Shown: positions 1,976 through 16,834 of the stretch, piece by piece | Position numbering within the stretch: the first letter of the stretch is position 1 | How the letters are laid out: every line of letters starts with the position of its first letter | Source of the DNA: Variovorax sp. DXTD-1 | GTDB taxonomy: Bacteria; Pseudomonadota; Gammaproteobacteria; Burkholderiales; Burkholderiaceae_C | NCBI RefSeq assembly: GCF_003984625.1 | Contig: NZ_RWKH01000004.1 | Span: 1-64,000 of the forward strand | Direction: 5' to 3' | Length of the DNA: 64,000 nucleotides | Translations under genes and position numbers: made by a program | Notes under the pieces: generated by a model | Told to the model about the DNA's origin: nothing | Database searches by the model: none | What the model saw: the letters and a program-made list of their open reading frames with translations, nothing else

Positions 1976-2937
1976 GGCTTCAGTGCTTCTTTGAGTGCGC
2001 GCGCCGCATCGTTTTGCGCCTGCAGCGCTTCAGGAATGGCGCGGCCCATTTTCAGAAATTCGTGGATCACGCCGCGATAGATTTCGAGATCGACCGCCAC
2101 GCCCGCGGCACGCAGCTTGTCGGCATAGGCAATGCCTTCGTCCACCACCGGGTCGCATTCGGCCAGCCCGATCCAAGCCGGCGCCACGCCTTCGACATCG
2201 TCCGCCAGCAGCGGCGCAAAGCGCCAGTCGTCGCGGTCGGCCGGCGTGCGCACGTACTGGCCGAAGAAGTAGTCGATCAGCGCCTTGGTCAGCAGCGGCC
2301 CGTTGGCGTACAGCTGGTGCGAAGGGGTGTCCTGGTGGCCGGTGGTGCCGGGGTAGATCAGCATCTGCAGCGCGAGCGGCAGGCCCGCGTCGCGCGCAAG
2401 AATGGCGCACACCGCGGCCAGCGTGCCGCCGGCGCTGTCGCCGCCCACCGCAAGACGGTTGGTGTCGAGGCCGAGGCGCGCGCCTTCTTTCGCAACAAAG
2501 GCGAATGCGTCCCAGGCGTCATCGGAGGCGGTCGGAAACTTGTGCGCGGGCGCTAGCCGGTAGTCGACCGACACCACCGCGCAGCCGCTCTTCAGGCTGA
2601 GCACGCGGCAGAGCGTGTCGTGCGTGCGGATGTTGCCGACGGTGAAGCCGCCGCCATGAAAGTACACCAGCACCGGCAGCCTGGCCGACGACGGCGCGTA
2701 GAGCCGGGCCGGAATCTCGAAGCCGTCGCGGGCGGTAATGCTGAAGTCTTCGATGCGCGTGAGGTCCGGCTTGGGCACCTCGAGCACGCCGGCGCCCTTC
2801 TCGTAGGAAGCCTTGGCCTCGTCGGGCGTGAGCTGGTCCAGGCTCGGATGGCCCGCCCGGGCCATGCGCTCGACCACGCTCGCCATCTTGGCCGTCAGCA
2901 ATGTGCCCGACGCGACAGCGGCAAGGGTTTTGTTCAT
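1972..2937 (-). CDS. Alpha/beta hydrolase, hormone-sensitive-lipase-type esterase
   Basis: A 321-aa carboxylesterase/lipase of bacterial family IV. The oxyanion-hole motif HGGGF is at residues 94-98, the nucleophile elbow GDSAGG at 166-171 (Ser168), and the acid and base are probably Asp262 and His292. No clear signal peptide is seen, since the N-terminus is only weakly hydrophobic, so it is likely cytoplasmic. The ATG at 2937 is preferred over a TTG six bases upstream. It forms an operon with the thioesterase-GNAT fusion, hinting that the pair handles an acyl ester or its acyl-CoA product. The natural ester substrate cannot be told from sequence. Confidence 0.9.
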   Translation of the reverse strand: MNKTLAAVASGTLLTAKMASVVERMARAGHPSLDQLTPDEAKASYEKGAGVLEVPKPDLTRIEDFSITARDGFEIPARLYAPSSARLPVLVYFHGGGFTVGNIRTHDTLCRVLSLKSGCAVVSVDYRLAPAHKFPTASDDAWDAFAFVAKEGARLGLDTNRLAVGGDSAGGTLAAVCAILARDAGLPLALQMLIYPGTTGHQDTPSHQLYANGPLLTKALIDYFFGQYVRTPADRDDWRFAPLLADDVEGVAPAWIGLAECDPVVDEGIAYADKLRAAGVAVDLEIYRGVIHEFLKMGRAIPEALQAQNDAARALKEALKP

Positions 2938-3005
2938 GTGCAAGACTGTTTGCTCTTGTTAGATTCGAATGGTCGTCAATCGTACCGCCCCAAGCATCAA
3001 CGCCC

Positions 3006-4142
3006 ATGGCCCTCATCCAATACCTCACCCAGATCCAGTTCGAGTTCGGCGCCATCAAGCTGCTGTCCAGCGAATGCGCGCGCATAGGCATCACCCGCCC
3101 GCTGATCGTGACCGATGCGGGCGTGCGCGCCGCCGGCGTGCTGCAGAAGGCGCTCGACGCCGTGGACGATCTAGAGGTGGCAGTGTTCGACCAGACGCCT
3201 TCCAACCCGACCGAGGCGGCCGTTCGCGCGGCGGTCGAGCTGTATCGCAGCGCACGGTGCGACGGACTCATTGCAGTGGGCGGCGGCTCCGCCATCGACT
3301 GCGCCAAGGGCGTCGCCATTGCGGCCACGCACGAAGGCCCGCTCAAGACCTACGCCACCATCGAAGGCGGCTCACCGAAGATCACCGAGCGCGTGGTGCC
3401 GATCATTGCGGTGCCCACCACCAGCGGCACCGGCAGCGAGGTGGCGCGCGGCGCCATCGTCATCGTGGACGACCACCGCAAGCTGGGCTTTCACAGCTGG
3501 TTCCTCATGCCGAAAGCGGCCATTTGCGACCCCGAGCTCACGCTCGGCCTGCCACCCCGGCTCACGGCCGCTACGGGCATGGATGCCATTGCGCACTGCA
3601 TGGAAACGTTCATGTCGGCGGCCTTCAATCCGCCCGCCGACGGCATCGGGCTGGACGGACTGGAGCGCGCGTGGCTGCACATAGAGCGCGCCACAAAAGA
3701 CGGCAGCGACCGCGAAGCGCGCCTGAACCTGATGAGCGCATCGATGCAAGGCGCGATGGCTTTCCAGAAAGGCCTGGGTTGCGTGCATTCGCTGAGCCAC
3801 AGCCTGGGCGGTGTCGATCCGCGCCTGCACCACGGCACGCTCAACGCCCTCTTCCTGCCCGCGGTAATTCACTTCAATGCAGGTGCCGAGTCGGTGCAGA
3901 AAGAGCAGCGACTGCAGCGCATGGCGCAGGCCATGCACCTCGATTCGGCCGGTGATCTCGGCGACGCGATCCGCGACATGAATGCGCGCCTCGGCATGCC
4001 CAAGGGCCTGGCTGAAGTGGGCGTGACGCCCGACCTGTTCGAAAAGATCATCGACGGCGCCATGGCCGACCATTGCCACAAGACGAATCCGCGGCTGGCT
4101 ACGCGGGGCGACTACAAGGCGATGCTCGAAACTTCGATGTAG
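3006..4142 (+). CDS. Iron-containing (group III) alcohol dehydrogenase
   Basis: A 378-aa NAD(P)-dependent dehydrogenase of the Fe-ADH family, full length. The nucleotide-binding motif GGGSAID lies near residue 92, followed by the PTTSGTGSE signature near 140 and DPELTLGLP near 178. The metal site is supplied by D and H of GMDAIAHCMETF and the two histidines of GCVHSLSHSLGG and HHGTLNA. Metal type (Fe or Zn) and substrate (short alcohols, 4-hydroxybutyrate, lactaldehyde) are not fixed by these motifs. The ATG at 3006 matches the family start; upstream in-frame codons reach into the divergent promoter region. It is a single gene, divergent from the esterase operon with a 68-bp gap. Confidence 0.9.
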   Translation: MALIQYLTQIQFEFGAIKLLSSECARIGITRPLIVTDAGVRAAGVLQKALDAVDDLEVAVFDQTPSNPTEAAVRAAVELYRSARCDGLIAVGGGSAIDCAKGVAIAATHEGPLKTYATIEGGSPKITERVVPIIAVPTTSGTGSEVARGAIVIVDDHRKLGFHSWFLMPKAAICDPELTLGLPPRLTAATGMDAIAHCMETFMSAAFNPPADGIGLDGLERAWLHIERATKDGSDREARLNLMSASMQGAMAFQKGLGCVHSLSHSLGGVDPRLHHGTLNALFLPAVIHFNAGAESVQKEQRLQRMAQAMHLDSAGDLGDAIRDMNARLGMPKGLAEVGVTPDLFEKIIDGAMADHCHKTNPRLATRGDYKAMLETSM

Positions 4143-4551: not shown

Positions 4552-6894
4552 ATGACGCGCACCGTCCAGGTTCACACCGTACTGAACGCCGAGCAGCTCA
4601 AGTTTCGCGCGATGCGGGGCCGGGAAGCACTGTCGCAGTTGTTCGAGTTCGAGGTCGACATGGTCAGCCCAAGCTTCAACCTCGACCTGAAGAAGCTGCT
4701 CGGTACCTCCTTGACCATCGAGGTGACCGACGGCGGCGCACCGCGCTTTCTCAACGGCACCGTGGTGCGTTTCGAACTCGTGGGCCGCGCCAACGAAACC
4801 GGCCGCCACTATGTGTACCGTGCGCTGGTGCAGCCCTGGCTCTGGTACCTCACGCGCACCACCGACTGCCGCATTTTCCAGAACAAGAGCGTGCCCGAGG
4901 TGCTCGACGAAGTGCTGGGAAAGTACGGCTTCGAATTCGAAAAGCGCCTGACGGGCAGCTATCGTCCCTGGGAATACTGCGTGCAATACCAGGAGAGCGA
5001 TTTCGCTTTCGTGAGCCGCCTCATGGAGCACGAAGGCATTGCCTACCATTTCGAGCACACCAGCAGTTCGCACCTGCTGGTGCTGGCCGACGACACCGGC
5101 GGCTACCGCAAGCTTCCGGGCTACGCCACCATTCCATACCGCCCGCGCGACCGTGTGCTTCATGCGATGGAGCCCTGCATCGACCAGTGGCGCGTGGCCG
5201 AGCAAATTACCTCCGGCCGCGTGATGCTCGACGACTTCGACTTCAAGAAATCGCGCGCCTCGCTGCAAAGCGTGCGTCAAGATCCCAAGGGCCACGACCA
5301 TTCGACCTATGAAGTCTATGAATGGTTGGGCGGCTACAGCGAGCACCAGCAAGGCGACACCTACGCGAAGATTCGGTTGCAGGAACTGCAGTGCGCACAC
5401 GAGCTTGCTGCGGGCCACACCAACGTGGTCGGCATGGCGCCGGGTTACCTGTTCGAGATGACGCACTGCCCGCGCGAGTCGGACAACCGCGAATACCTGG
5501 TCACCGAAACCCGCTACGACCTGCAAGAGCCCGAATACTCCACTGGCACCAACACAGAGTCGGTGTGCCAGTTCGACTTCACGGTGCTGCCCTCGAACGT
5601 GCCCTACCGTCCCGCGCGCAAGACACCCAAGCCACGCACCAACGGCCCGCAAACCGCCACGGTGGTCGGCCCGGAAGAAATCTGGACCGACCGCTTCGGC
5701 CGCGTGAAGCTGCAGTTCCGCTGGGACCGCTACGGCCAGTCGGACGAAAACAGCTCCTGCTGGGTGCGGGTGTCGAGCAACTGGGCCGGCGCCAACTACG
5801 GCACCATGCACATGCCGCGCGTGGGCCAGGAAGTGATCGTAGATTTCATCGGCGGCGAGCCCGACCGCCCCATCATCACCGGCCGCGTCTACAACAACGA
5901 CCAGATGCCGCCGTGGGAGTTGCCCGCAAACGCCACGGCCAGCGGCATTCTCACGCGCTCGAGCACGGGCGGTGCGGCCAACCAGGCCAACATGCTTCGC
6001 TTCGAAGACCGCAGCGGCGCCGAGCAGATCCTGCTGCACGCCGAGCGCAACCTCGACGTGGAGGTGGAAGCCGACGAAACGCACACCACAGACGGCACGC
6101 GCACCACGCTCATCAAGGGCCATGAATCGGCCACCTACAAGAGCGGCGAAACGCGCGACATTACCGCGGGCGCGAAAGAAACCATTACCGGCGGCGACAT
6201 GCGCGACGTGACTGGCGGCTTCAGCGAAACGGTCAGCGGCGGCGTTACCCAAACGATTTCGGGCGGCAAGAAGCGCACGCTCAGCGGCGGGCTGAACGAC
6301 ACGATCTCGGGCGGCGTCAACCTTGCGATCACCGGTGGCTTCCACGGCACCATCGATGGGCAGGAGATCCGCTTCGTGAGCGGCGGGCGCAACGACACCA
6401 TCGACACCTCGAACACCGTGCTGGTCAACGGCCCTTCGAACACCACGGTGACCGGCCCGACGGTGCACACCTCGCCGGATGTGACCTTCAACACGACGAA
6501 CCACATCCACAACACGACGCAGCACGTCATCAACACCAGCGTCTACAACACGACGTCGAACACCTACAACAACCTGACGGTCAACTACACCAACAACTCC
6601 GTCTCCTACACCAACAACTACTCCAAGAGCAGCGACTGGAGGTGGTTCCGCCTGGGCGGCACCGGCTTGAACATGGACGTGTCGGGCATTTCGCTGGGCG
6701 TGGTGGCCGTGCGTTCGATGGCCATCGGCGTGCAGGCGCAGGCCATCGGCGTGAAGCTGGAGGCTGTGGGCGTGGAGTGGAAGAACAAGGCCATGTCGCT
6801 GGGGGATGCCGGTGCGCTCATCCAGCTCGTGGGCACGGAGATCAAGACGGGCGGTCTGCGCGCCGGCATCCAGGCGCTCAAAATCCTGCTCTGA
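4552..6894 (+). CDS. vgrG: Type VI secretion tip protein VgrG (TssI)
   Basis: A 780-aa spike protein that trimerises at the tip of the T6SS tube and carries effectors. Residues 1-360 match the gp27-like hub. The gp5 OB-fold follows at about 365-460 (WTDRFGRVKLQFRWDR, GDxxDRPIITGRVYN-like sequence). From about 515 to 625 the chain is built of roughly 8-residue repeats ending in TGG or SGG, the pattern of the trimeric beta-needle. Residues 640-690 are strikingly Thr/Asn-rich. The last 80 residues hold a second regular repeat (VSGISLG..., MAIGVQA...) and no known toxin domain. ATG 4552 is chosen because of AGGGA 8 bases upstream; a TTG at 4513 is the alternative. First gene of a six-gene module. 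Confidence 0.95.
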   Translation: MTRTVQVHTVLNAEQLKFRAMRGREALSQLFEFEVDMVSPSFNLDLKKLLGTSLTIEVTDGGAPRFLNGTVVRFELVGRANETGRHYVYRALVQPWLWYLTRTTDCRIFQNKSVPEVLDEVLGKYGFEFEKRLTGSYRPWEYCVQYQESDFAFVSRLMEHEGIAYHFEHTSSSHLLVLADDTGGYRKLPGYATIPYRPRDRVLHAMEPCIDQWRVAEQITSGRVMLDDFDFKKSRASLQSVRQDPKGHDHSTYEVYEWLGGYSEHQQGDTYAKIRLQELQCAHELAAGHTNVVGMAPGYLFEMTHCPRESDNREYLVTETRYDLQEPEYSTGTNTESVCQFDFTVLPSNVPYRPARKTPKPRTNGPQTATVVGPEEIWTDRFGRVKLQFRWDRYGQSDENSSCWVRVSSNWAGANYGTMHMPRVGQEVIVDFIGGEPDRPIITGRVYNNDQMPPWELPANATASGILTRSSTGGAANQANMLRFEDRSGAEQILLHAERNLDVEVEADETHTTDGTRTTLIKGHESATYKSGETRDITAGAKETITGGDMRDVTGGFSETVSGGVTQTISGGKKRTLSGGLNDTISGGVNLAITGGFHGTIDGQEIRFVSGGRNDTIDTSNTVLVNGPSNTTVTGPTVHTSPDVTFNTTNHIHNTTQHVINTSVYNTTSNTYNNLTVNYTNNSVSYTNNYSKSSDWRWFRLGGTGLNMDVSGISLGVVAVRSMAIGVQAQAIGVKLEAVGVEWKNKAMSLGDAGALIQLVGTEIKTGGLRAGIQALKILL

Positions 6895-6897
6895 AGC

Positions 6898-7341
6898 GTG
6901 GAAAACGTGCTCGAGATCGTGCTGTGGGGAGTGTTCGGCATCGTCAGCCTGGGCGTGATCGTGCTCGCCGCCATCGTGCTCGCGGTGGCGCTGATGAGCC
7001 ATCGCGCCTATGCCGAGGAAGGCCGGCTGTGGCAGCAGCTGCAGGCCAGTGGGCGTCCGCTGCAGGGCGTCGCGGTTTCCCTGGTGCGCTCGCCCAGCGG
7101 CTACTCCCGGCGCGGCCCCATCGGGCAGCGCATGACGGCCGTGCAGCTGGGCGTCGCCTACGTCGATGCCGCCGGCATCGAGCAGCAAGCCACCTTGCGC
7201 ACGCTCATCGACAAGGACCTGCTGGCCCATTTTTCCGCGGGCCGGCCCGCCATTCATCTGCTGCAGGACCCGCAAGACCCGTCGCGGCTGGCCATCGACC
7301 GCAGGCACACCCCGCTGGAGATCCGCGGCGCAAGGCGCTGA
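6898..7341 (+). CDS. Hypothetical membrane-anchored protein in the vgrG module
   Basis: A 147-aa protein starting at GTG 6898, three bases after the vgrG stop, so it is almost certainly cotranscribed. Residues 5-32 form one strong transmembrane helix; the rest is a soluble domain of about 110 residues with alternating beta-like and helical stretches and no cysteine. The general layout (one N-terminal helix followed by a small beta domain) resembles DUF3592-type proteins, but I cannot assign it. In this position it could be an immunity protein, a VgrG partner or an accessory membrane factor; nothing in the sequence decides among these. Confidence 0.72.
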   Translation: MENVLEIVLWGVFGIVSLGVIVLAAIVLAVALMSHRAYAEEGRLWQQLQASGRPLQGVAVSLVRSPSGYSRRGPIGQRMTAVQLGVAYVDAAGIEQQATLRTLIDKDLLAHFSAGRPAIHLLQDPQDPSRLAIDRRHTPLEIRGARR

Positions 7342-7348
7342 TCCCGCC

Positions 7349-9997
7349 GTGAAAACCATCAAGCCCCTGCGCCTGAGCGTCCTGACTCGACCCTTCCTGC
7401 GCGCGCAAAGCCAGCGTCTCGCACTCACCGTGATCGGCATGCACACCCTCGGCGAAGGGGGCGTGCTGCTGCCGGAGACGGAGCTCTGGAAGACCGTCTC
7501 TGCCGAACTGGGAAACCAGTCCGCAATCGATCTCGGCATTCCCAAGCTGCGGCCCGAATTCCTGGTGAGCGGCCAGGCCTACACCTGCCACCAGCAGGAC
7601 AAGACGCGCTGCGCGGTCGACCTGCGCGTCGGCACCTTGCGGCGCCAGTTCCTCGTTTCGGGCGACCGCTACTGGCTGGATGGCCGCGCCACCGAGCCGC
7701 AGTCTTTCGACACCATGCGCCTGGACTGGCGACACGCGTTCGGTGGCCCCGGCTTTGCCGCCAACCCCGCGGGCATCGGGTACGCACCCGAGATGGTCAA
7801 TGGCCTGCTGGTGCAGCGGCTTCCCAACGTCGAACGCCCGGGCGACGGCGTGGACCGCCCCGACCGCAGGCCGGCCCCGGCCTGCCCGGCTGCGATGGAC
7901 GTCGATCTGCCCGAACGCCTGAAGCTGCTGGGAACGGACTACGGCGACCAGTGGCGCGAGACGCTTTACCCCGGCTTTGCGCGCGACATGGACTGGCAGT
8001 TCTTCAACGCCGCGGCTCCGGAACAACGCTGGAACGACGAACTGTCCATTCCCGCAGCCGCGCCCTACGAGATCTGGAACATGCACCCGGAGCATGCGGT
8101 GCTGCGCGGACGGCTTCCGGACTTGCGCGCACGCGGCTTCGTGGCGAGAAAGTCTGCGCGGCCCCTTGCGCTGGAAGAGGTGCCGCTGCGGCTGACCACC
8201 GCGTGGTTCTTCCCGCACATGGCGCAGGTCATGCTGATCTTTCACGGCGAGACGCTCATCGCCGAGGACGATGCCGCGGATATCACGCATGTCATGCCGG
8301 CGATGGAGGAGGCAGACAGCCCGCTGCGCCCCCTCTCCCACTACGAGAAGGTCTTCGAGAACCGCTGCAACCTGGAGAAAGGCGCCATCCATGCGCTGCT
8401 CGACGAGGAACTGCTGCCGGCCTCGGCCATCGGCCCCTGGTTGGACCAGATCGACGCGCGCGAATCGATCCTCGCAAGGAACATCAAGGACAAGGGCGAG
8501 CGCCTGCGCGCCGAATTGACGGCGCGCGGCCTGGAGGCCGGCCACAAGGCGCGCCATTTCCGGGAACGGCCCCTGCCGAAGCCTTTCGACAAGATGCCCA
8601 CGCTGGCCGAACTGCCCGAGTTCATCGACGAGACACGCGCCTACCAGCGCGAACAGCAACGCAAGCTGGAGGAAGCCAGGCAGGAGGTCGCGAAGGCGGC
8701 CCAAGACAACGCAACCGAATCGCGCAAGGCGGGCTTCGACAGCAGCCGGATCACCGACGAGGAAAGCCGGAACGCGCAGCTCAAGGGCCCGCCGAAATTC
8801 GAGGCCGAGACGATCGTCAAGGGCCTGGCCGGTATCGCCGCGGCCGCGGGCACTCCGGCCATGAGCGCCGCCGAGCACGCCGAGCTGCAGGCCCTCGGGC
8901 AGCGGGGGCGGCAGGACATGCTGACGCTGTACCGCATGGCGGCCCACCACCAGGCCGCTGCAGATCCGATGGCTGCCGAACAGAATGCGCAGACGCGCGA
9001 ACGCGTGCTCGCCGCCATGGCCGCGGACCGCGATCTGTCCGCCATGGATCTGACGGGCTGCGACCTGTCGGGCCTCGATCTGCGGGGCGCCCGCATGCAC
9101 CAGACCTTGCTCGAAGGCGCCCGCCTCCAGGGCACCCGCCTGGATGGCGCCGACCTGAGCCAATCGGTGCTGGTGCGCGCCGACCTGCGCCAGGCCTCGT
9201 TGACGGGCTGCAACCTGGAGCGTGCCAACCTCAGCCTCGCACGCTGCGAAAACACCAACTTCGCGCAGGCCCGCTTCGAGCGCACGCAAATGGAAAAGCT
9301 GCGCCTCGACGGCTGCTGTCTCGACGAAGCGAGATGGAGCCATCTGTTGCTGCAGGGGATCGAACTTGCGGATTGCAGCCTGCGGCGCGCCGACCTCCGC
9401 TACGTGAGCATGGCCGAACACTGCCGGCTGGCGCGCTGCGACTTCGGCGAGGCACGCCTGGAAAAGGTGCTGTTCGTGCAGGCCGAATTCGAGTCGGTGG
9501 ATTTTTCCGGCGCCACCGTCGAAGCCTGCAGCTGGGCCCACACTCCGCTGCACAAGGGCATCCGGTTCCGGCGTGCCCTGCTCAAGACCACCAGCTTCGT
9601 CGGCACCACGGATCTTCGCGAGGCCGACTTCGAGGATGCCACGCTGGTGCATTGCACCCTGCGCGAGCTGCCTCTCGATGGCGCGAACTTCAGGCGGGCT
9701 ACGCTCGATACCTGCGATTTCTCCTCCGCGTCGCTCAAGGGCGCGGACCTGCGCGCGGCGGCGGCGCCCGACAGCCTCTTCATCCGCGCCGATTTCACGC
9801 GCGCCTCCCTGCGGCTCGCCAATCTCATGAATGCCAACCTTCAGAAGGCCTGCCTGGTCGATGCCGACCTGGGCGAGGCCAACCTGTTCCGTGCCGATGT
9901 CTCCCAGGTTCTCATCAGCCCCGGCACGATCACCCTTGGCGCCCACATCGACCAGATGAAGACACTGCCGCGGCGCCCCGAGGCGGGCAGCGCGTGA
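7349..9997 (+). CDS. DUF2169 domain plus pentapeptide-repeat protein
   Basis: An 882-aa protein. Residues 1-330 are a DUF2169 domain (with the typical DWRHAFGGPGFAANPAGIGY), a family found beside vgrG and PAAR-like genes and thought to help load T6SS cargo. Residues 350-560 are charged and largely helical, with a Gln/Glu/Lys-rich coiled-coil stretch near 440-470. Residues 561-865 consist of dozens of pentapeptide repeats (A-D/N-L-x-x pattern, e.g. DLSGLDLRGARM), which fold as a four-sided right-handed beta-helix. No signal peptide or membrane segment. GTG at 7349 lies 7 bases after the previous stop; upstream codons in frame overlap the previous gene. It overlaps the next gene by GTGA. Confidence 0.88.
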   Translation: MKTIKPLRLSVLTRPFLRAQSQRLALTVIGMHTLGEGGVLLPETELWKTVSAELGNQSAIDLGIPKLRPEFLVSGQAYTCHQQDKTRCAVDLRVGTLRRQFLVSGDRYWLDGRATEPQSFDTMRLDWRHAFGGPGFAANPAGIGYAPEMVNGLLVQRLPNVERPGDGVDRPDRRPAPACPAAMDVDLPERLKLLGTDYGDQWRETLYPGFARDMDWQFFNAAAPEQRWNDELSIPAAAPYEIWNMHPEHAVLRGRLPDLRARGFVARKSARPLALEEVPLRLTTAWFFPHMAQVMLIFHGETLIAEDDAADITHVMPAMEEADSPLRPLSHYEKVFENRCNLEKGAIHALLDEELLPASAIGPWLDQIDARESILARNIKDKGERLRAELTARGLEAGHKARHFRERPLPKPFDKMPTLAELPEFIDETRAYQREQQRKLEEARQEVAKAAQDNATESRKAGFDSSRITDEESRNAQLKGPPKFEAETIVKGLAGIAAAAGTPAMSAAEHAELQALGQRGRQDMLTLYRMAAHHQAAADPMAAEQNAQTRERVLAAMAADRDLSAMDLTGCDLSGLDLRGARMHQTLLEGARLQGTRLDGADLSQSVLVRADLRQASLTGCNLERANLSLARCENTNFAQARFERTQMEKLRLDGCCLDEARWSHLLLQGIELADCSLRRADLRYVSMAEHCRLARCDFGEARLEKVLFVQAEFESVDFSGATVEACSWAHTPLHKGIRFRRALLKTTSFVGTTDLREADFEDATLVHCTLRELPLDGANFRRATLDTCDFSSASLKGADLRAAAAPDSLFIRADFTRASLRLANLMNANLQKACLVDADLGEANLFRADVSQVLISPGTITLGAHIDQMKTLPRRPEAGSA

Positions 9998-11106
9998 ACG
10001 CCGAGACGCTGGCAGCCCAGGTCCGCAACGGCGAGCCGATCCGCGAGAAGGATTTCAGCAACATGGACCTGAGAGGCATCGACCTGCGCGGCGGCGTGTT
10101 CAGCGGCTGCAGCTTCCGGGGCGTTCAGGCCGATGCCGCGCGCCTGGGCGAATCCCTCTTCGAGAAATGCCGCTTCGGCCAGGCGCAGTTGCCGGCGGCG
10201 GAGCTGACGCGCGCCGCCTTCCACGAGTGCAGCCTGCAGGATGCGGTGCTGGATGCGGCCTCCATGCCGCATTCGGTGTTCAGCGGCTGCAAGCTGTGGG
10301 GCATTCGGCTGGAAGAAGCCTTCATGGACCAGGCGAACTTCCATCAAAGCGAGCTGCGCAACGCCTGCCTGGACCGTGCCAGCCTCGACAAAGCCGTGTT
10401 CTCCGAGTGCGACTTGACGGGCGCGTCCTTCAATGGGGTGGCCTTCTCGTCAACCATCTTCTTTCGCGCAGCGCTGACGGGCACGCGCTACGCCGGAGCC
10501 AGCTTCACGAACGCGATTTTCAGCGAGGCGGATCTTGCGGGGCAAGACTTCTCCGGGCAGCAGTTCCACCTCTGCCAGTTCATCGACGCGGTGCTGGCGG
10601 CGTGCCGATTCCGCGATGCGCGCCTCACGCAGTGCAACTTCAAGGGGGCCGACCTGCGCAATGCGGTGCTGGCAGGGGCGCAGGCCATGCAGTGCCTGTT
10701 TCCCGAGGCGGACCTGCGCGGCGTCGATGCGCGGGGCGGCCACTTCCAGCAGAGCATCTGGGTCGACGCCCATCTCGACGGCGCAGACTTCTCGCAGGCG
10801 CAGCTCGAGCAAGGCGTCTTCCATCGCGCGCACTGCGGGCAGACCGCATTCGCCGGCAGCCGCTTGGACTACGCCGATTTTTCCTACGCCTCGCTGGTCC
10901 AGGCCGACTTCCGCGATGCCGCTTTCCTGCGCACCGTGTTTCATCGCGCCGACCTGGACGGCGCCAGGTTCAGTACCCGCCTGGGTACGCTGGAGCGGGA
11001 CCCTGCGCTGCACGAAGCCGAGAAGGTGGCGCTGCAGCAACCCGAGCGCCCATCCCGCCGGGACCGCGACATCCATGGCCGCCGCCCCAAGAAAGAAAGC
11101 CCATGA
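9994..11106 (+). CDS. Pentapeptide-repeat protein of the vgrG module
   Basis: A 370-aa protein that is almost entirely pentapeptide repeats from about residue 20 to 330, with many units of the form F/L-x-x-C-x-F. It is unusually rich in Cys at the repeat corner (GCSF, KCRF, ECSL, QCNF). The final 35 residues are basic and Pro/Arg-rich. It begins at GTG inside the stop of the DUF2169 gene and ends inside the ATGA of the DUF3540 gene, showing tight translational coupling on both sides. Pentapeptide proteins can mimic DNA (gyrase-binding Qnr/MfpA type) or act as rigid scaffolds; which applies here is not known. Confidence 0.87.
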   Translation: MNAETLAAQVRNGEPIREKDFSNMDLRGIDLRGGVFSGCSFRGVQADAARLGESLFEKCRFGQAQLPAAELTRAAFHECSLQDAVLDAASMPHSVFSGCKLWGIRLEEAFMDQANFHQSELRNACLDRASLDKAVFSECDLTGASFNGVAFSSTIFFRAALTGTRYAGASFTNAIFSEADLAGQDFSGQQFHLCQFIDAVLAACRFRDARLTQCNFKGADLRNAVLAGAQAMQCLFPEADLRGVDARGGHFQQSIWVDAHLDGADFSQAQLEQGVFHRAHCGQTAFAGSRLDYADFSYASLVQADFRDAAFLRTVFHRADLDGARFSTRLGTLERDPALHEAEKVALQQPERPSRRDRDIHGRRPKKESP

Positions 11107-11861
11107 CCTCCACCCGGAACACCACCCGGAACACCACCCGGACCACCGCCGGCGACACGATTGCCACTGCACGCCATGCAACGCAAGGCGTGCTGGATCC
11201 GCTGATGCAGCGCCCTTCGCATGCGGCCCGCGCGGACTCCGGCACCCGAACCGCCACGGTGATCGCCAGCGATGGCGATGCCTGGTTCGAGGTCGACTTC
11301 GACGACGGCCAGGGGTCGCTGCGCTGCCGGCGCGTCGCCAGCTGCCTGCTGCTGCCCGCGCCGGGGGATACGGTGCTGATCACCTCGACCCGCCAGGGCG
11401 ACAGCTTCGTCATCGCGGTGGTCGTCCAGGCCGACCCGCGGCAGGCGACGCTGGCCGTGGACGGCGACCTGACGCTGGTGTCGCGCTCGGGTGGCATCCG
11501 CGCGCACAGCGCCGGCCCGATGGCGCTGGAGTCGGACACCTCGATCGCCATGCAGTCGCCCGAGTGGCGCACACAGGCCCGGCGGGCCCATTGCGAGATC
11601 GGGGAGATGGACTACCAGGGCGCGCGCATCCGCTTCAGCGTGCTGGTGTCGCGCTTCGTCGGGCGCACCTGCGAGGTGGTGCTGGATCGCCTCAACCTGC
11701 TCACCCGCTCGAGCTTCCGCCTGACCGAGGAGATGGAACAGGTGCGTGCCGGCCAGATCGACATTCAGGCCGAGCAGACCTTGCGCCTGCATTCGAAGAA
11801 CACGCTGCTGACCAGCAAGGGGCTGGTCAAGGTCGATGCCGAGCAGATCCACATGGGTTGA
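11103..11861 (+). CDS. DUF3540 domain protein of the vgrG module
   Basis: A 252-aa protein of the DUF3540 family, commonly encoded between DUF2169/pentapeptide genes and a DUF4150 gene in T6SS islands. Residues 2-15 carry a Thr/Asn/Arg repeat (NTTR) encoded by a 12-bp tandem DNA repeat. Residues 45-120 form a small beta domain. Residues 120-250 show regular beta-strand repeats (VDGDLTLVSRSGGIRAHS, IDIQAEQTLRLHSKN) like the needle of VgrG, so it may form or cap part of the spike. Starts at ATG 11103 overlapping the previous stop. Biochemical role is not established by the sequence. Confidence 0.85.
   Translation: MTSTRNTTRNTTRTTAGDTIATARHATQGVLDPLMQRPSHAARADSGTRTATVIASDGDAWFEVDFDDGQGSLRCRRVASCLLLPAPGDTVLITSTRQGDSFVIAVVVQADPRQATLAVDGDLTLVSRSGGIRAHSAGPMALESDTSIAMQSPEWRTQARRAHCEIGEMDYQGARIRFSVLVSRFVGRTCEVVLDRLNLLTRSSFRLTEEMEQVRAGQIDIQAEQTLRLHSKNTLLTSKGLVKVDAEQIHMG
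11111..11146 (+). repeat. 12-bp tandem repeat, three units
   Basis: Units CACCCGGAACAC, CACCCGGAACAC and CACCCGGACCAC follow directly after the DUF3540 start codon. Loss or gain of a unit would keep the reading frame and change the number of NTTR peptides. Confidence 0.85.
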
Positions 11862-11878
11862 TTGAAGGAGCCTTACGC

Positions 11879-12265
11879 ATGTTTGCCAACGCACAGATGA
11901 TGGGAATGGACCTCGCATTTCCAGATGTCTGCAAGACGCCGCCGGCGCTGCCCATCCCTTACCCGAACTTCGCGCTCGGGCCTACGGCCATTCCCAATGC
12001 CTGGAACATCCTGTACGGCGGCACGCCGGCCCACAACCTGGCCACCACCACGCCCATCACCAACGGCGACAACGCGGGCGTGCTGATGGGCGTGGTGTCG
12101 CAGACCGTGATGGGGCCTTCGCGCCACATCACGGGTGCGTTCACCGTGCTGCTCAAGGGCACGCCCTGCACGCGCATGACCAGCCTGTCGGTGCAGAACC
12201 GCTGCAACATCGTGGGCATGCGGATCGTGCCGAGCCAGTTCAAGGTGCTGGTGCTGGCGGCCTGA
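11879..12265 (+). CDS. DUF4150 / PAAR-like T6SS tip protein
   Basis: A 128-aa protein matching the DUF4150 PAAR-like family. It has a Pro-rich N-terminal half (CKTPPALPIPYPNFALGPTA), a central NGDNAGVLMGVVSQTVMGPSRH, and the closing KGTPCTRMTSLSVQNRCN. PAAR-like proteins cap the VgrG spike and often carry C-terminal toxins. This one ends right after the domain, so it carries none. AAGGAG lies 8-13 bases before ATG 11879. It is the last gene of the module; the next gene is convergent and begins only 6 bases beyond its stop. Confidence 0.9.
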   Translation: MFANAQMMGMDLAFPDVCKTPPALPIPYPNFALGPTAIPNAWNILYGGTPAHNLATTTPITNGDNAGVLMGVVSQTVMGPSRHITGAFTVLLKGTPCTRMTSLSVQNRCNIVGMRIVPSQFKVLVLAA

Positions 12266-12271
12266 GGCTTT

Positions 12272-13255
12272 TTATTCCGCCTTCACGCCCGCGGTGCGAA
12301 TCACTTTCGCCCACTTGGCGGTCTCGGCGGTGATGAAAGCATCGAACTCCTCCGGCGTGCTGCCCGCCGGAATGGTGCCCATGGCGTCGAGCTTGGCGCG
12401 CGTCTCGTCGCTCTTGATGACGCGCGCCACCTCTTCCGACATGCGCTTGATGATGTCGCGCGGCGTGCCGGCCGGCGCCAGCATGCCGGCCCAGGTGCTG
12501 CCGGTGAAGCCGGCAAAGCCTTGTTCGATGAAGGTGGGCACATCGGGCGCGGCGGCCAGGCGCTTGTCTCCGGCCACGCCGATGAGCCGCACCTTCCCCG
12601 CCTTGGCCTGGTTGATAAGGCCCGTGGGCGCATCGAAGAACAGCTGGATCTGGCCGCCCATCAAATCCGTGAGCGCGGGCACCGCACCGCGGTATGGGAT
12701 GTGGATCATGTAGGTCTGCGTGAGCGACTTCCACAGCTCGGTAGTCAGGTGCGCGGCCGATCCGTTGCCCGAAGAACCGAAGCTCACCTTGCCCGGGTTG
12801 GCACGCGCGTAGTCGATGAGTTCGCGCGCGGTCTTGAACGGCGCATCGACGTTGACCGCCGCCAGCAGCGGCGACACGCCCATCAACGAAACGCCGCTCA
12901 AGTCCTTTTTCGGGTCGTACGGCAGCTTGGGGTACAGCGTAGTGTTGGCCGCGTAGGCCGCAATGACAACGCCGAAGGTGGTGCCGTCGGGCGCGGCCTT
13001 GGCAATGGCATCGACGCCAATCAGGCTGTTGGCACCGGGCTTGTTGTCGACGAGCACCGGCTGGCCGAGCCGCAACTGCAGGCCCACCTGCACCAGCCGT
13101 GCCATCTGGTCGGTAAAGCCGCCCGGCGTGTACGGCACGATGATGCGGATCGGTTTGTTGGGCCAGGCGCCTTGGGCCAGCGTCGGCATCGGGATGGTTG
13201 CCGCTGCTGCGGCGGCAAGGGTGAATCGGCGGCGTGAAATCGGAGCCTGCTGCAT
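12272..13255 (-). CDS. Bug/TctC-family periplasmic binding protein
   Basis: A 327-aa solute-binding protein of the tripartite tricarboxylate transporter class, which binds carboxylic acids in the periplasm. The leader contains SRRRFTLAAAAAA, a twin-arginine-type signal, with cleavage probably after TLAQG. The mature part has WPNKPIRIIVPYTPGGFTDQ and a downstream MGGQIQLFFDAPTGLI, both typical. An in-frame ATG at 13291 exists, but 13255 places the RR motif at the normal distance and has a purine-rich site upstream. There are no TctA/TctB membrane partners nearby, as is usual for the many orphan Bug proteins of this group. Ligand unknown. Confidence 0.88.
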   Translation of the reverse strand: MQQAPISRRRFTLAAAAAATIPMPTLAQGAWPNKPIRIIVPYTPGGFTDQMARLVQVGLQLRLGQPVLVDNKPGANSLIGVDAIAKAAPDGTTFGVVIAAYAANTTLYPKLPYDPKKDLSGVSLMGVSPLLAAVNVDAPFKTARELIDYARANPGKVSFGSSGNGSAAHLTTELWKSLTQTYMIHIPYRGAVPALTDLMGGQIQLFFDAPTGLINQAKAGKVRLIGVAGDKRLAAAPDVPTFIEQGFAGFTGSTWAGMLAPAGTPRDIIKRMSEEVARVIKSDETRAKLDAMGTIPAGSTPEEFDAFITAETAKWAKVIRTAGVKAE

Positions 13256-13344
13256 GGGGGCGGCTTTCTCTGAAAAGAGTGAACGGCCCATTCTCGAAGG
13301 CGCTGCGCGCCCACAGCCTCAGGGTTTGCCCCGGCGATACGTTT

Positions 13345-14418
13345 TCAGAGCGGCAGCAGGTCCTGCGTGCGGCCGGTTGAAAGCCACGCCTCGAACTCAT
13401 CCGACAGCCGCTGGGCCTCGCGCGTGGCCCTGCTCCAGGCGCCGATACGCGCCTGCGCGTCGTTCGCAAAACGGATGAAATCCTTGCGGTCGGGCAGCTT
13501 GCCGTTGGGGAGCGACCGCACCCAGTCGGCGTCCGGCGCAAGCACCACCATGCGGTCGAGGAAGCCCGTGGACTTGTGCCGCCAGCGCAGGCCCTTGTCG
13601 AGCCAGCCCGGCACCACGGCCTGCTGGAAATGCGGGTACAGCACGATGCCTTCGTCGGCCGGCTGGTAGTCCAGGTGCAGGTGATAGTCGGTGATGCCGC
13701 CGTCCCAATAGGCGCCGCGCGGCGCGCCCGGAATGTCGTGCACGGCGGCAAGCAGGAACGGAATCGAGCACGATGCCTGCAGCACCATGTTGAAGTTCTC
13801 TTCGCTGAGCGCGTGCTGCCGCGTTCGAAAGTCGTTGGTGCCGAAAGGCAGGGCCGCGCCGGGCGTGGAAAACACGCAGCGCTCCAGCCATGCGCCCAGG
13901 CTCTTGCGGTGCAGGCTGTTTGTGGCAAAGGCGCCCAGGTAGCCGAAAGGCGTGCGCGCCCTGCCCTCGCGCCCGAGGATGTGGCGGCCGCGAGAGGTCA
14001 CCACATGGAGCTTGTAGCGCGAGTGGTTGAGCACCTCGCCGATGCGCCCGCCGTAGAAGTCGTGCAGGCTCTCGGCAAAGCGCGCGCTCAGCTGGTCGGG
14101 GCGGAGGCGCTTCTGTCCCGGCGGCACTTCGAACTGCTGGCGCACGTAGTCGTGCTCAAAGCGCTCGAAGGCCTTCTGCGGATCGGACAGGCAGGCCGTC
14201 GAAAGCCGCCATGCCCCAATCGATGCGCCCACCAGGTGCACCTGCTGGCTCGATTGCGTAAGCCAGCGCCCGAAGATGAAGCGGTCGAGCGGGCCGAGGA
14301 TCAGCCCCTTGGGGCCGCCCGCGGCGCCGGGAATGGTGCGCACGTCCTGCGGGCGCAGGCCGTTCGCCTCGATGTGCTTGCGGGCCGCGGGGCCGGCATA
14401 GATGCGCAGTGCCTTCAT
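13345..14418 (-). CDS. Patatin-like phospholipase
   Basis: A 357-aa protein with patatin layout: an oxyanion Gly-rich turn (PGAAGGPKG, near residue 33), the serine elbow GASIGAW (near residue 65) and the DGGITDYH motif (near 235), giving a Ser-Asp catalytic dyad. It probably hydrolyses phospholipid or acyl esters and lacks a signal peptide. ATG 14418 (MKALRIYAGP) or an ATG two codons upstream (14424) are both possible; longer readings run into tex. It follows tex by 40 bases on the same strand and may be read through from it. A role in membrane remodelling is inferred from the family only. Confidence 0.85.
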   Translation of the reverse strand: MKALRIYAGPAARKHIEANGLRPQDVRTIPGAAGGPKGLILGPLDRFIFGRWLTQSSQQVHLVGASIGAWRLSTACLSDPQKAFERFEHDYVRQQFEVPPGQKRLRPDQLSARFAESLHDFYGGRIGEVLNHSRYKLHVVTSRGRHILGREGRARTPFGYLGAFATNSLHRKSLGAWLERCVFSTPGAALPFGTNDFRTRQHALSEENFNMVLQASCSIPFLLAAVHDIPGAPRGAYWDGGITDYHLHLDYQPADEGIVLYPHFQQAVVPGWLDKGLRWRHKSTGFLDRMVVLAPDADWVRSLPNGKLPDRKDFIRFANDAQARIGAWSRATREAQRLSDEFEAWLSTGRTQDLLPL

Positions 14419-14458
14419 CGTCATGCCGGCGGCATCAGCAAGAACCGTGCGGCACGGT

Positions 14459-16834
<2,376 letters not shown>

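Follow-up and report, generated by a model that had tools for sequence, protein, structure and literature searches.

The window analyzed here is the 64,000-nucleotide stretch of Variovorax sp. DXTD-1 at positions 1 to 64,000 of contig NZ_RWKH01000004.1 (C34 in our numbering of a 5.25-Mb genome). Six genes, all on the forward strand, span positions 4552-12265 of the window. They encode a spike protein (VgrG) of the type VI secretion system (T6SS), a small membrane protein of 147 amino acids (aa), three proteins with DUF2169, pentapeptide or DUF3540 domains, and a PAAR-like DUF4150 protein that would cap the spike (Table 1). The junctions between them are, in order, +3, +7, -4, -4 and +17 bases, so the genes are as tightly linked as a preliminary description of this locus had it. 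The gene list in that description needs one correction: the DUF2169 domain and the first pentapeptide domain, which it counted as two proteins, belong to a single one, and therefore the 147-aa membrane protein is to be counted among the six.

Table 1. Coordinates of the module, of the exchanged block and of the conserved flanks in the window
Feature	Position	Strand	Start codon	Basis or remarks
VgrG spike, 780 aa	4552..6894	+	ATG	residues 24-574 comprise the canonical hub, OB and gp5-like parts
Polymorphic VgrG tail, last 80 residues; candidate toxin and specificity part	6652..6891	+		allele comparison; co-variation with the 147-aa protein
147-aa membrane protein, candidate Vai1-type immunity protein	6898..7341	+	GTG	position of Vai1; profile match; predicted local distance difference test (pLDDT) of the model, 77
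TvpAB, DUF2169 fused to pentapeptide repeats, 882 aa; putative spike-tip chaperone	7349..9997	+	GTG	PF09937, 229.8 bits; PF00805
TvpB, pentapeptide-repeat protein, 370 aa	9994..11106	+	GTG	PF00805, PF13599
TvpC, DUF3540, 252 aa; putative VgrG-mimicking assembly template	11103..11861	+	ATG	PF12059, 174.1 bits; role from PMC13373197
Tip-only DUF4150/PIPY PAAR-like cap, 128 aa	11879..12265	+	ATG	PF13665, 125.6 bits; PIPY motif present
Exchanged block: VgrG tail, 147-aa gene, tvpAB, tvpB, start of tvpC	6640..11300 (approximate borders)	+		blastn; identity of block versus flank
Upstream conserved flank, dehydrogenase-like reading frame (named by eye)	2901..4142	+		shared chromosomal site
Downstream conserved flank, TctC-type receptor	12272..13291	-		PF03401, 225.3 bits

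Results

Domain content of the module

VgrG matches the Pfam families PF05954, PF04717 and PF22178, as well as TIGR03361 (622 bits). Above the Pfam cut-off, the module as a whole contains Phage_GPD, Gp5_trimer_C, Phage_base_V, DUF2169, pentapeptide families, DUF3540 and Tox-PAAR-like, together with LD_SV2 on a pentapeptide protein; DUF6484, LD_SV2 and Decapeptide also appear below it. NCBIfam adds VgrG models and sub-cut-off matches to the pentapeptide parts, and the 147-aa protein has no Pfam match. As had been noted before, neither database recognizes a toxin domain in any of the six proteins, the VgrG region past the gp5-like part included. The DUF4150 match covers residues 9-113 of the cap, which thus ends with its domain, again in agreement with the preliminary description, and no separate toxin gene follows in this orphan module. 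In 99 of 100 parsed modules (the window and the copies in its own genome included; the remaining module had no tip found), the DUF4150 protein ends 0-10 residues past the domain match, and therefore no effector domain looks deleted in the window. The module is not a chance arrangement, because DUF3540 is found three times in the Variovorax sp. DXTD-1 genome, always inside such a module; of 101 Variovorax genomes, 65 contain it.

An orphan class III Tvp module

The class III Tvp system was published in 2026 for Serratia marcescens Db10 (Monlezun, Earl and Coulthurst, PMC13373197). The following components of it are found here: a TvpAB with a C-terminal pentapeptide part, a separate TvpB, a DUF3540 protein (TvpC), and, in the same gene run, a DUF4150 cap and a VgrG of 700-800 aa. 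The order of VgrG, small membrane gene, TvpAB, TvpB, TvpC and tip-only DUF4150 is the same in Db10. Judged by these sequence features, the window carries an orphan class III Tvp module. Unlike the Serratia module it is an isolated island, lying outside the two T6SS clusters seen in the genome, and its direct sequence similarity to Db10 is low. Moreover, Db10 has two small genes (Vai1 and SMDB11_2246), whereas the window has one.

Since the module matches class III Tvp, the pentapeptide, DUF2169 and DUF3540 proteins are most likely spike chaperones by analogy, and not the cargo that the pentapeptide proteins had been suspected to be. As described for Serratia, TvpAB, TvpB, TvpC and Paar1 are all required for killing and for Hcp secretion via the VgrG1 route; secreted TvpAB or TvpB was never detected by the authors; TvpC is structurally VgrG-like and central to a pre-complex; and the published model has TvpAB and TvpB wrapped around the spike tip (PMC13373197). 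Sachar et al. (2025, PMC11883445) have also reported a chaperone function of DUF2169 proteins for DUF4150 (PIPY) tips. The window resembles synteny type C of these authors (DUF2169 with C-terminal pentapeptide, DUF3540, DUF4150 and VgrG), the PIPY motif included. Their function tests were made in P. aeruginosa and V. parahaemolyticus, put in another class by the Tvp paper, and the small membrane gene goes unmentioned in their passages on these complexes.

The 147-aa protein resembles Vai1

In Serratia, Vai1 is encoded directly after vgrG1 and has an N-terminal membrane helix. Deletion and complementation are described as showing that it protects against a VgrG1-dependent activity that depolarizes the inner membrane, and it pulls down only VgrG1, a spike for which that account gives neither a recognized toxin domain nor a separate effector (PMC13373197). 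The 147-aa gene occupies the position of Vai1, its start being 3 bases past the VgrG stop. Its homologues with an organism in their name number four, all from Variovorax.

To see how often such a gene is present, we drew on 100 DUF3540 regions, of which 91 belong to the genus and 9 to other families of the order, plus the three copies in the own genome. This set is biased to high scorers. Three of the 103 were excluded with no DUF2169 found and two with no VgrG in range, leaving 98 modules. A suitable frame lies between vgrG and tvpAB in 88 of them, and none in 10. The longest such frame begins with a transmembrane segment in 83/88 (88/88 if the choice of frame favors such a segment; both choices give the same frame in 83).

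For comparison with Vai1, we used the gene of S. marcescens 106R (L236), taken by position as the Vai1 orthologue; the Db10 sequence itself lies outside this comparison. The gene encodes 129 aa directly after vgrG, with a membrane segment from residue 7, and is followed by a 166-aa gene, the layout described for Vai1 and its neighbor in Db10. A profile of 41 small proteins (40 from the genus) matched the L236 protein with an hhalign probability of 97.4% over 82 columns. With a profile of the beta domain only, three Serratia orthologues rank first of 70 enteric gap proteins (49.6, 48.4 and 46.9 bits; the L236 protein, 46.9). The best score is 6.7 bits among 1400 shuffled sequences and 3.5 bits among 70 reversed ones, and 52 of the 70 enteric proteins exceed all of these controls. 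DUF3592 is weakly matched in 8 of the 41 profile proteins and, below cut-off, in five of seven scanned on the Serratia/enteric side, the Serratia orthologue included. DUF3192, the domain stated for Vai1, is not among the families listed for the 41 relatives or for the Serratia orthologue. Structure prediction, which had been proposed as a check, gave models of the 147-aa protein and the Serratia orthologue (pLDDT 77 and 78, respectively) that both start with a long helix and continue into an OB-like beta domain; structure matches are weak. Position, architecture and profile similarity together mark the 147-aa protein as a probable Vai1-type immunity protein. This is at odds with the preliminary description, which saw no immunity gene at the locus and named this protein as one of the possible cargoes.

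The VgrG tail varies together with the small protein

Compared with same-locus alleles (L093, L130 and L168) in steps of 20 residues, VgrG is identical at fractions of 0.6-1.0 before the tail and 0.1-0.4 within it. Across 82 complete modules, the median identity is 21% for the tail (last 80 residues) and 27% for the small protein, the most variable parts of the module, against 61% for the VgrG core and 75% for the cap. The two vary together, with a correlation of 0.90 between their pairwise identities. Controlling for all other parts leaves a partial correlation of 0.52, which exceeds that of the other 35 pairs of parts, including the 0.47 between the pentapeptide part of TvpAB and TvpB. It is 0.61 with three parts held constant, a value reached by 0 of 500 permutations. 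At 60% identity there are 24 families of tails and 25 of small proteins, which agree with an adjusted Rand index of 0.97. Among the 3321 pairs of modules, 512 have VgrG cores at least 85% identical yet tails below 40%. None combines tails at least 60% identical with small proteins below 40%, and none combines small proteins at least 60% identical with tails below 35%. Along VgrG, the link to the small protein is strongest at residues -80 to -41 (partial correlation 0.42-0.43). The last residues share a register (of 69 representative tails, partnered or not, 48 have Leu at -5) and may simply dock the tip.

Allelic exchange at one chromosomal site

One or both conserved flanks of the module were found in 33 of 120 fetched regions, each from another genome, giving 34 Variovorax genomes once the window is counted. 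Five alleles of the tail, small gene and Tvp block occur at this site: A (that of the window) in 10 genomes, B in 11, C in 6, D in 4 and E in 3. In blastn comparisons of the window with 13 same-locus loci of other alleles, identity is about 86-91% up to positions 6639-6713, then 64-71% or no match, and returns to about 78-87% from about 11300-11600 (in L114 and L150 as one joined run from about 10520). In 437 pairs of different alleles, the median identity is 90.5% for the upstream flank, 89.0% for the VgrG core, 90.3% for the tip and 88.3% for the downstream flank, compared with 67.6% for the block. In 33 of 36 pairs within allele A, identity is higher for the block (94.1%) than for the upstream flank (90.5%), which points to a recent spread of this allele by recombination; within alleles B to E this is so in 1 of 79 pairs.

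A tree built from the upstream flank (33 rows) requires 15 allele changes, where the minimum is 4 and the mean of shuffled labels 18.9. On this quick tree each allele group is rejected as one clade, with P values of the approximately unbiased test from <1e-80 to 0.03. The flank may itself recombine, and therefore its tree shows uncoupling and not species history. Tails of types C and D are also present in two modules (L172 and L173) for which neither of these flanks was found in the fetched stretch; the same alleles may move between sites. The module thus belongs to the published class III Tvp system but takes a clearly allelic, exchangeable form, of which no description was found in the literature searched. 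A word search of the main text of the Serratia paper likewise gave no counterpart to the allelic exchange or to the arrays described below (PMC13373197).

Immunity-like gene arrays in enteric bacteria

Fifteen of the 23 named loci with gap genes hold at least two frames of 85-150 aa between vgrG and tvpAB, with up to ten in one locus. The three gap genes of Phytobacter diazotrophicus (L200) correspond to genes 3, 4 and 5 in Kosakonia sp. S29 (L202; 91, 82 and 97% identity) and to genes 3, 6 and 7 in P. ursingii (L205; 90, 79 and 93%). L202 and L205 have other first genes than L200, and the VgrGs are 96-98% identical N-terminally, diverging toward the end. Similarly, the gene that stands first in Pantoea allii (L201) comes second in P. 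ananatis (L199; 83% identity), and the tails of the two share 17%. First-gene and tail identities are correlated (rho 0.44, over 253 non-independent pairs). The extra genes in the parsed enteric arrays mostly encode small membrane proteins of the gap-gene families. On this sequence evidence, displaced antidote-like genes accumulate behind a new first gene in enterics. In a separate observation, the small genes of such arrays can alternate regularly between two protein families, as 0,1,0,1,0 in L202 and 0,1,0,1,0,1,0 in L205, for which single insertions are no obvious explanation.

An analogous process is known from the T6SS of V. cholerae, in which new effector-immunity pairs displace old effectors by homologous recombination and the old immunity genes stay behind (Kirchberger et al. 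2017, PMC5361080). The retention of old immunity-like genes behind new ones is the same. However, separate effector genes are replaced in V. cholerae, whereas here it is the end of the VgrG spike, a part with no known domain, that changes.

Discussion

We consider it likely that the window carries an orphan class III Tvp spike module whose spike end is the toxin and whose 147-aa protein is the cognate immunity protein. The VgrG C-terminus, in which the preliminary description had noticed no toxin domain, is now the likely cargo, though Pfam and NCBIfam also show no such domain there. If the roles of the Serratia proteins are carried over (PMC13373197), TvpAB, TvpB and TvpC would hold the DUF4150 cap in a pre-complex, in which VgrG would then replace TvpC, and the capped spike would be loaded on and fired by one of the T6SSs of the genome. 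Once in the target cell, the terminal ~80 VgrG residues, which presumably continue the beta-prism, would damage the inner membrane. The 147-aa protein, membrane-anchored and OB-like, would act only against its cognate tail. The tail, the putative immunity gene and the Tvp chaperone genes pass between species as one block.

Several observations weigh against this reading. First, the isolated C-terminus of Serratia VgrG1 is reported not to be specifically toxic (PMC13373197). Second, modules with and without the small gene do not differ in tail hydrophobicity, and the final residues of several tails that have a partner are charged or polar. A hydrophobic end-peptide, as proposed in print, therefore need not apply to all, and these data speak against a single shared membrane-peptide mechanism. 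Third, agreement between tail and small-protein families falls to an adjusted Rand index of 0.69 at 50% identity and 0.24 at 40%, a level at which families become chained by single linkage, and in 231 of the 3321 pairs the small proteins are 40-60% alike with tails below 40%. Part of the co-variation could also be explained by chaperone fit, because TvpAB and TvpB are included in the exchanged block. Fourth, as few as 15 allele changes on the flank tree were reached in 2 of 200 shuffles; the alleles are thus somewhat clustered on it. Fifth, the small protein is akin to the presumed Vai1 orthologue in its beta domain, but the predicted topology differs for most relatives: charge flanks, a crude rule, put the beta domain of 74 of the 88 small proteins in the cytoplasm, unlike Vai1. 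Finally, the small gene is often missing. Among 14 lower-scoring regions of the genus, two have it and ten do not, one being cut and one unclear. Of 54 named loci read (one more was left out), 48 could be judged; 23 have the gene and 25 do not, 20 of the latter being Xenorhabdus. In these 20 Xenorhabdus loci (among L223-L253), no frame of at least 60 aa lies between vgrG and tvpAB. The spike can therefore work without the small gene. Some Xenorhabdus genomes carry two modules of this kind.

We regard as improbable an alternative in which the module is a spare spike, lacking its own cargo and used to deliver effectors that are Hcp-borne or of other kinds. The 147-aa protein would then aid membrane anchoring or assembly, and the co-variation of tail and small protein would reflect the fit to one assembly. 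In favor of this, TvpAB and TvpB, which would wrap the tip, move with the tail, the small gene is absent from many class III modules, and Serratia VgrG1 is described as also carrying Hcp-dependent cargo (PMC13373197). However, Vai1, encoded in the same place, protects targets (PMC13373197), many modules keep the chaperones without the small gene, and arrays of up to ten divergent frames in which displaced copies are kept fit an immunity protein rather than an assembly part.

Somewhat less probable still is that TvpB is a secreted effector, with the DUF2169 protein as its chaperone and the DUF3540 protein as its immunity protein. Such roles were reported for the same gene set in Pantoea ananatis DZ-12, where the pentapeptide protein is TseG, the DUF2169 protein TecG and the DUF3540 protein TsiG (Zhao et al. 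2024, as cited in PMC12873547 and PMC12421835), and TvpB and TvpC also differ between alleles. That report thereby assigns effector and immunity roles to proteins that the Tvp work calls assembly factors. Their requirement for killing and Hcp secretion in Serratia, the failure to detect secreted TvpAB or TvpB and the VgrG-like nature of TvpC (PMC13373197) argue for the latter. Moreover, the partial correlation between TvpB and TvpC is 0.27, against 0.52 for tail and small protein, and the extra genes of the enteric arrays come mostly from the gap-gene families. That the 147-aa protein is itself an injected membrane toxin, as its small size, membrane association, variability and place in the spike operon might suggest, is very unlikely, given that its Serratia relative is an immunity protein by deletion and complementation (PMC13373197) and that arrays of such genes would mean toxins without antidotes.

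In its account of Vai1, the Serratia work left open the identity of the toxin that Vai1 neutralizes (PMC13373197). The present comparisons suggest the final ~80 spike residues, and the natural sets of tail and immunity alleles at one chromosomal site make the question directly testable. In a wider sense, we see an even chance that class III VgrG ends form a large family of polymorphic toxins with no known toxin domain, each ~80-residue tail being the toxin, carrying the specificity and having a membrane-anchored, OB-like immunity protein of its own, and that bacteria from Variovorax to enterics swap the tail, immunity gene and chaperones and keep old immunity genes as arrays. If so, many VgrG genes now read as plain structural parts would be toxins, and the small "hypothetical" genes behind them would be immunity genes.

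Other modules in the genome and in the genus

Of the other two copies in the Variovorax sp. DXTD-1 genome, that on contig C44 has tssF, tssG and a ClpV-like gene ahead of it and a PP2C phosphatase gene after it; a 140-aa membrane gene takes the place of the 147-aa gene. The copy on contig C18 is near another tssF and has no small gene. It is adjoined by a second VgrG and, at L009:7212-10488, by an extended DUF4150 protein, a 161-aa acidic neighbor and a DUF2169 gene without pentapeptides. The C-terminal extension of this DUF4150 protein has no Pfam toxin match, and the set looks like an ordinary effector-immunity-chaperone set. With extended DUF4150 in this set and tip-only DUF4150 alongside DUF3540, both styles therefore coexist in one genome.

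In the window itself, a patatin-like gene (13348-14592, reverse strand; PF01734, 27.6 bits versus a cut-off of 27.7) lies beyond the downstream TctC flank and is not obviously part of the island.

A second type of class III module is present in eight Variovorax loci (L185-L188, L190, L192, L196 and L197). Here the C-terminus of VgrG bears a long extension whose end is of low complexity and rich in Gly, Pro or Ser/acidic residues, and tvpAB follows immediately, the small membrane gene being absent. In five of them (L185-L188 and L196), a further VgrG follows the module. The long extension may be a different cargo.

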